Shown one piece after another: positions 33,290 through 36,439 of a stretch of 64,000 nucleotides of DNA. Source of the stretch: Halolamina pelagica (GTDB lineage Archaea > Halobacteriota > Halobacteria > Halobacteriales > Haloferacaceae). The stretch is from positions 248,001 through 312,000 of the forward strand of contig NZ_FOXI01000001.1 of NCBI RefSeq assembly GCF_900115675.1. The letters run 5' to 3'. The translations under genes were made by a program, and so were the position numbers. The first letter of the stretch is position 1. Each line of letters opens with the position of its first letter. Under the pieces are notes generated by a model. That model was not told where the DNA came from, did no database searches, and was given only the letters and a program-made list of their open reading frames with translations.

Positions 33290-35928
<2,639 letters not shown>

Positions 35929-35934
35929 TTTAAT
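35929..35934 (+). promoter_or_regulatory. TATA box of the candidate structured RNA
   Basis: TTTAAT in CCATTTAATG is centred 27 bases before base 35959, where the folded segment begins. A second AT-rich box, CAATATAG, lies 14 bases further upstream. Confidence 0.5.
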
Positions 35935-35959
35935 GTTCGGCACCCACTACCTCCTCAGT

Positions 35960-36070
35960 GCAGTAAGGAAGACTCCCGACCGTGACGCCGACGCATTCCG
36001 GCATCTCCCCCCACCCCACATCGCAACGGTTCGGGACGCCCACGCGACAGTGGGCGGATCTTCCTTACTT
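35960..36070 (+). ncRNA. Candidate structured RNA with a three-way junction
   Basis: A 108-base segment closes with a perfect 11-bp helix (AGTAAGGAAGA at 35962-35972 with TCTTCCTTACT at 36059-36069). Inside are two arms. The first pairs TCCCGACCGT (35974-35983) with ACGGTTCGGGA (36026-36036) with one bulged base, and contains an inner GCCG/CGGC hairpin and a C-rich single-stranded loop. The second is a 7-bp hairpin CGCCCAC/GTGGGCG (36037-36043 with 36050-36056). One base separates the outer helix from arm A and none separates the two arms. A TATA box sits at the right distance and a T-rich tract follows. It does not match 5S rRNA, SRP RNA, RNase P RNA or tRNA. A short mobile element with inverted ends is the main alternative. 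Confidence 0.55.
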
Positions 36071-36193
36071 GCTTCTTAGGGCCGAGCGCTGTGGGTTGCG
36101 TGAGACCCGTTCGACACGGTCGCGAAAACGTGTGCAGTGACTACCCGCTCGGTGTCGCCGGGACGGTCGCGGGAGGGGTGACAGGTCGCCGCG

Positions 36194-36439
36194 TCAGAAC
36201 GTCGGTTCGTCCTCGTTCCCCCCCTCCTGCATCGCGGGGTCCTGCTGGTCCTCGACCGTCTGGGTGAACAGGTCGCTGTCCATCTCCTCGGTGGGTTCCT
36301 CCTCGATGTCGTACGCCGAGACGCCGCGCTGGAGCAGGTCCTCGACGGCCCGCTCACGGTTGAGGAACTCGCCGGACTCCACGAGACGGTTGAGTTCGCC
36401 GGTAATACGGTCGGGGAGGTCGACCTCGATCTGCGCCAT
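36194..36439 (-). CDS. Small ribbon-helix-helix (CopG/DUF7120-like) regulator
   Basis: 81 residues. The first 42 form a ribbon-helix-helix: strand IEVDLPDRI, helix TGELNRLVESG, and helix NRERAVEDLLQRGV. The tail is acidic and disordered (DIEEEPTEEMDSD onwards). It probably binds DNA as a dimer. It is divergent from the HSL-type esterase with 76 bases between the starts, so the two could be co-regulated. The TATA-like GCAAAGTTC is 32 bases before the ATG. In-frame codons upstream are arginine- and cysteine-rich and rejected. Confidence 0.78.
   Translation of the reverse strand: MAQIEVDLPDRITGELNRLVESGEFLNRERAVEDLLQRGVSAYDIEEEPTEEMDSDLFTQTVEDQQDPAMQEGGNEDEPTF

Follow-up and report, generated by a model that had tools for sequence, protein, structure and literature searches.

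A conserved three-way-junction RNA of Halolamina as a candidate antisense sRNA for the start codon region of DUF7563 mRNAs

The window, that is, the whole 64,000-nucleotide stretch of Halolamina pelagica DNA analysed here, almost certainly encodes a structured non-coding RNA, as predicted from its sequence. Rfam lacks this family, which as a kind would be a variant of antisense sRNA. With a probability of about 0.5, it is proposed that this RNA acts in trans as an antisense sRNA on the mRNAs of small zinc-finger proteins of the DUF7563 family. A TATAGCC-type promoter would drive + strand transcription of a non-coding RNA of ~125-150 nt, and this RNA would fold into a rigid three-way junction in which the loop of the P2 arm presents a seed. 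This seed would pair in trans with AUG CCx GAA UGC, the start codon and codons 2-4 (M-P-E-C) of DUF7563 mRNAs, and such pairing would block the initiation of translation. A near-leaderless mRNA has no Shine-Dalgarno sequence to mask, so the start codon with codons 2-4 is the obvious site to cover. The RNA would then be the genus-wide member of a haloarchaeal antisense sRNA family with one seed, (G)GCAUUCCGGCA.

In RNA folding, positions 35940-36080 form a three-way junction of -54.7 kcal/mol (z = -5.41) that none of 200 shuffles equals, which bears out the original prediction that a fold of this kind is unlikely to be chance. Against the covariance model of the genus, the window copy scores 128.6 bits (E = 1.3e-35). 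The parts of the RNA, in window coordinates, are as follows.

35956 to 36080, + strand: structured non-coding RNA, three-way junction (covariance-model span; from fold, covariance-model match and covariation)
35962 to 35972, + strand: P1 closing helix, 5' strand, exact complement of 36059-36069, with two-sided pair changes in relatives
36059 to 36069, + strand: P1 closing helix, 3' strand, exact complement of 35962-35972
35975 to 35983, + strand: P2, 5' strand (fold, covariation)
36026 to 36035, + strand: P2, 3' strand with one bulge (fold, covariation)
35987 to 36002, + strand: P2a mini-hairpin GCCG-ACGCATTC-CGGC, which presents the seed (fold; invariant)
36005 to 36022, + strand: C-rich unpaired loop, a C-run followed by CCACCCCACATC; conserved
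36037 to 36056, + strand: P3 hairpin (fold, covariation), with a (C)CCACA loop in most relatives
36061 to 36078, + strand: T-rich tail, possible 3' end, read directly from the sequence

The closing helix had been described as a perfect 11-bp pairing, and it is exact (AGTAAGGAAGA/TCTTCCTTACT) and the sole such pair in the 64 kb, where 0.08 matches are expected. The 7-bp inner hairpin of the original prediction is recovered as P3 (36037-36043 with 36050-36056) and its inner 4-bp hairpin as P2a (35987-35990 with 35999-36002), whose pairing is not probed by covariation because it is invariant. The inner helix has the single bulge ascribed to it and is 9 bp long plus the bulge, instead of 10 bp. 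The description also needs correcting in that P2 and P3 are separated, in most relatives, by a longer linker or an additional arm that is lacking in the window copy. The match of the T-rich tail to a terminator is weak and does not exceed that of shuffled sequences.

The RNA is found in all seven Halolamina genomes examined, the window genome included, in single copy in each. A covariance model run over 391 genomes of the class returned strong matches in Halolamina only. Weak covariance matches of 20-24 bits that resemble coding sequence by eye were rejected as full-fold homologues beyond the genus, as were blastn matches in genomes G039 and G065, which are short and lie in apparent coding sequence. 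A pattern scan of named genomes gave real matches only in Halolamina (rubra, pelagica, salifodinae), three further matches looking like chance, and the viral, plasmid and phage collections gave no match, or chance matches in apparent genes. The two neighbouring genes in the window are the following.

33290 to 35449, - strand: katG, catalase-peroxidase, within the fetched flank in four of the seven genomes
36194 to 36439, - strand: ribbon-helix-helix gene, DUF7120/PF23434, 81 aa, adjoining the RNA in all seven genomes (synteny)

In the other three genomes, the upstream gene ends in a helix-turn-helix region that by eye resembles bacterioopsin-activator regulators.

The most conserved part of the RNA is the P2 loop and not a stem; it consists of CCGACGCATTCCGGCATC plus the C-rich run, and contains the seed.

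35993 to 36005, + strand: hyperconserved seed GCATTCCGGCATC, invariant in 7/7, reverse complement (12/13) of the DUF7563 start codon region

In each of the seven folds, the six 5'-most bases of the seed are unpaired to 91% or more; the four bases that follow are paired in P2a. Across the seven Halolamina genomes there are 14 copies of the 11-mer GCATTCCGGCA and none of its reversed control. A role of the C-rich loop as another antisense region was rejected: elsewhere its matches include a recurrent sense coding motif and no conserved antisense target. This loop may bind a protein.

To GCATTCCGGCATC with at most one mismatch, 31 matches were obtained in the seven Halolamina genomes, no gene having been preselected, compared with 8 for the reversed control. 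The only sites matched in all seven genomes are the RNA itself and GATGCCCGAATGC, the start of the DUF7563 zinc-finger gene (Pfam PF24444). Seed and DUF7563 start are complementary at 12 of 13 positions in every Halolamina genome, and exactly so in other genera. Because the genes are orthologues, the seven Halolamina matches count as one event, and the chance of such a match at some gene start is, by a rough estimate, a few percent. All seven Halolamina genes have a C opposite the central C of the seed, and this fixed C:C mismatch therefore divides the Halolamina duplex into 6 + 6 bp. The duplex predicted with the target of the window genome has -21.3 kcal/mol, an energy that 5 of 204 other gene starts match, so energy alone is not specific enough to single out DUF7563. 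The orientation of the motif is always antisense in DUF7563 genes and always sense in the RNAs, a rule that is predicted by base-pairing and not by a shared protein site. The Halolamina DUF7563 genes also have a conserved GCAAGGCAAG(C/T)TTTAC(A/G)TG box ~30 nt before the ATG, as would suit an mRNA that has hardly any leader.

Across genera, no compensatory change of seed and target was found, and a candidate for one, at L280, proved to be the start of another gene. In 20 DUF7563 starts from other genomes, picked as not known exact matches, the first codons are spelled in many ways. The sequence ATGCCGGAATGC is a common natural spelling of M-P-E-C, and DUF7563 starts with exactly this spelling occur in many genomes of the order in which no seed RNA was noticed short of a detailed search. 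No mention of DUF7563 was found in the literature searched, where the sole paper that names both Halolamina and sRNA is a Haloquadratum transcriptome.

The motif recurs at other loci, both in Halolamina and outside it. In Halolamina genome G001, four loci (L046, L058, L059 and L053) bear it inside hairpins or flanked by them, CCCACA loops being frequent, and L053 has a counterpart, L050, in genome G003. In a third Halolamina genome, G006, locus L056 bears GCATTCCGGCA together with a second near-copy, ACATTCCGGCA. Genome G011, of another genus of the family, has 15 matches to the seed 11-mer versus 1 for the reversed control; three of these are exact, antisense matches at DUF7563 start codons (ATG CCG GAA TGC, M-P-E-C), and most of the remainder are intergenic. 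Four G011 loci (L101, L105, L108 and L109) and one in G063 (L116) are dispersed, sRNA-like and diverse in their stems, and consist of a 5' hairpin, single-stranded GGCATTCCGGCA and a terminator-like hairpin with a T-run. In G063 and G048, a seed RNA lies 302 and 285 nt, respectively, downstream of a DUF7563 start with an exact 11-12-nt match (L114 527-840 and L173 512-810), and in Halolamina G001 (L119/L059) a seed RNA lies 129 nt upstream of a DUF7563 gene. Independent support for the target comes from the exact G011 matches and from these seed RNAs close to DUF7563 starts. The 5' stretch CGATGCGGTTCGCACTCA before the seed is common to L059 of Halolamina and L104 of G011. A wider proposal, to which we give somewhat less than even odds, is that sibling sRNAs with one seed, GGCAUUCCGGCA, silence small zinc-finger regulators in several haloarchaeal genera at the near-leaderless 5' ends of their mRNAs.

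Several further observations concern these loci. The placement of seed RNAs beside DUF7563 genes in two genera, on the downstream side in G063 and G048 and on the upstream side in G001, resembles a gene-plus-antisense-RNA module. L053 and L050 have, at about position 1500, a conserved intergenic stretch in which a GGACGG...CCGTCC hairpin precedes GAGAGAGTGAGTTTGCATTCCGGCATTACAC; this is probably one more seed RNA. Upstream of the seed copy of L058 (G001), at ~1400-1520, tandem hairpins have the loops TTCCCACA, TTCCACA and CCCCCCACA, which suggests a repeated protein-binding loop. L056 1380-1630 (G006:C1, about 2511990-2512240), found at 2.4e-4 with the model of the window RNA, is a second RNA-like locus with two TATAGCC, a small hairpin and a long stem that presents one loop with both seed copies.

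It is also conceivable, if on balance unlikely, that the RNA is real and its conserved loops are protein-binding sites, the molecule serving as an RNP scaffold or as a sponge that titrates a protein through its CCCACA-type loops and GCAUUCCGGCA. The C-rich P2 loop, almost as conserved as the seed and without a conserved antisense target, would fit this, as would the recurrence of CCCACA in the P3 loops of most relatives and in hairpin loops of L046, L058 and L059, and the imperfect Halolamina match to DUF7563. Protein sites would leave unexplained, however, both why, in several genera, the motif runs antisense to start codons that all belong to a single gene family and why seed RNAs adjoin DUF7563 genes.

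Covariation and strand bear on the fold and on a further alternative. Two-sided changes were found in 7 of 33 pairs (shuffle mean 2.9; 1 of 500 shuffles as high) and the covariation score exceeded 500 of 500 shuffles when the homologues were aligned to the covariance model, pair counts that are biased in favour of the model because the alignment was fitted to it. When these sequences were aligned independently with MAFFT, two-sided changes remained in 6 of 33 pairs, and the covariation term was not favourable. In the alignment to the model, 93.9% of cells are paired, compared with 33-49% once the partner strand is slid, and the outer stem is re-formed from other bases in G003 and G001. Compensatory changes in homologues, which had been named beforehand as the evidence for an RNA, are thus present. 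Read on the + strand, the alignment has 12 G-U cells versus 2 A-C cells, which therefore places the RNA on this strand.

Upstream of the RNA, two elements have to be compared.

35918 to 35924, + strand: invariant element TATAGCC, probable TATA/promoter or operator element, the only match in 64 kb
35929 to 35934, + strand: TTTAAT, the TATA box of the original prediction; not conserved

TTTAAT is kept in only three of the seven Halolamina copies, with TTAA in a fourth, whereas ATAGCC (35919-35924) is identical in all seven and lies at a fixed spacing, 33-35 nt before TGC(A/G)GTA, the first stem. The TATA box had thus probably been placed on the wrong element; TATAGCC is more likely the promoter element, and would act as a TATA box or as an operator. 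TATAGCC is also carried upstream by at least two further motif loci of Halolamina, the seed loci L046 and L056. It was rejected as a common promoter motif, AGTATAGCC being found elsewhere in the genus mostly in other contexts. In five relatives (L040, L042-L045), an inverted or partial copy (GGCTATACTGA, GGCTATACTGATAG or CTGATAG/CTATCAG) lies ~30-40 nt 5' of TATAGCC, about 106-117 nt upstream of the seed, an arrangement that resembles a two-half-site operator.

These data make it improbable that the locus is a cis element of the ribbon-helix-helix gene, whether as the structured 3' end of its minus-strand mRNA, as a bidirectional terminator of this mRNA, or as an RNA antisense to the end of the gene. 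The RNA does point at the 3' end of the ribbon-helix-helix gene in all seven genomes, and the minus strand also folds stably. Against this stand the 12 : 2 ratio of G-U to A-C cells, the TATAGCC element and T-rich tail that suit the + strand, an extra conservation that is located in loops and not in a terminator stem, and the recurrence of seed RNAs with TATAGCC at L046 and L056.

Still less credence is given to GCATTCCGGCA being a DNA operator, for example of an autoregulating DUF7563 protein, with an RNA-like fold that is incidental. Autoregulation would also give a motif at DUF7563 starts and in intergenic DNA, but the stems of the window RNA covary, and at other loci the motif lies between hairpins always in the same orientation, followed by hairpins that resemble terminators. 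The MITE-like short inverted-repeat mobile element that the original prediction had kept as its alternative, suggested by the 11-bp terminal inverted repeat that bounds the segment, is refuted for Halolamina by one copy per genome, the same neighbour in 7/7, terminal sequences that change by compensation in G003 and G001, and the lack of a match in plasmids or phages.

With respect to known RNAs, Rfam 15 gave no match at the gathering threshold in the window or in 11 related loci; the best sub-threshold match reached 16.4 bits, versus 40 needed, and lay on the opposite strand. ARAGORN found no tRNA or tmRNA, and no Rfam guide-RNA family model for H/ACA or C/D RNAs scored above threshold. The earlier judgement that the RNA is not a 5S, 7S, RNase P or tRNA agrees with these searches. 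The homologues are 125-150 nt long, and none of their reading frames stays open across the whole set of seven. Without Rfam coverage, the window RNA is a new family for annotation.

The proposed antisense action can be compared with a few described systems. In Methanosarcina mazei, an unstructured region of sRNA162 pairs in trans with the mRNA of a regulator and masks its translation start, and the sRNA masks a ribosome binding site within a bicistronic mRNA (PMC3510493). By description, the window RNA would be similar as an archaeal sRNA with trans pairing at a translation start. It would differ in where its seed pairs, namely on the start codon and the codons just after it in an mRNA that probably has next to no leader, in the placement of this seed within one arm of a three-way junction, and in having sibling RNAs with the same seed. 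In Haloferax volcanii, the intergenic sRNA s479 has one short motif that is predicted to contact many mRNAs, and its binding to znuC1 mRNA was seen by gel shift (PMC8155600). The window RNA would likewise be an intergenic sRNA of haloarchaea that interacts through a single short motif, while s479 has a different motif (GCCGAAGCG), pairs inside the coding region and adjoins CRISPR genes. Also in Haloferax volcanii, sRNA132 is intergenic and has a phosphate transporter operon as its proposed mRNA target (PMC6560208). It and the window RNA are both haloarchaeal intergenic RNAs with a proposed mRNA target, and the targets differ. We know of no motif that is common to the two.

In bacteria, the sibling sRNAs of the cuckoo/alpha-r14, LhrC and RsaE families occur as several RNAs per genome with one exposed C-rich or antisense loop, and these loops target Shine-Dalgarno sequences. 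The target proposed here is, in contrast, archaeal, and within one protein family it spans the start codon together with codons 2-4. In the literature searched, no start-codon-directed, shared-seed sRNA regulon on one protein family was found described in archaea, and such a regulon would, if true, be new. Most haloarchaeal mRNAs are leaderless and lack a Shine-Dalgarno sequence, and the way in which sRNAs control translation in these organisms has been stated to be unresolved (PMC8155600); the window RNA with its seed is a concrete candidate for sRNA control of such mRNAs. As a class, the zinc-finger micro-proteins of haloarchaea influence swarming and biofilm formation as well as growth on glycerol (PMC6562870), none of them shown to be DUF7563. 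A second branch of DUF7563 (MPxCDHCGSHVS; L211-L235) has, in many genera, a conserved 5' leader hairpin, ACCGGCA...TGCCGG, which ends ~7 nt before the ATG, carries GGTGG in its loop and is possibly cis-regulatory.
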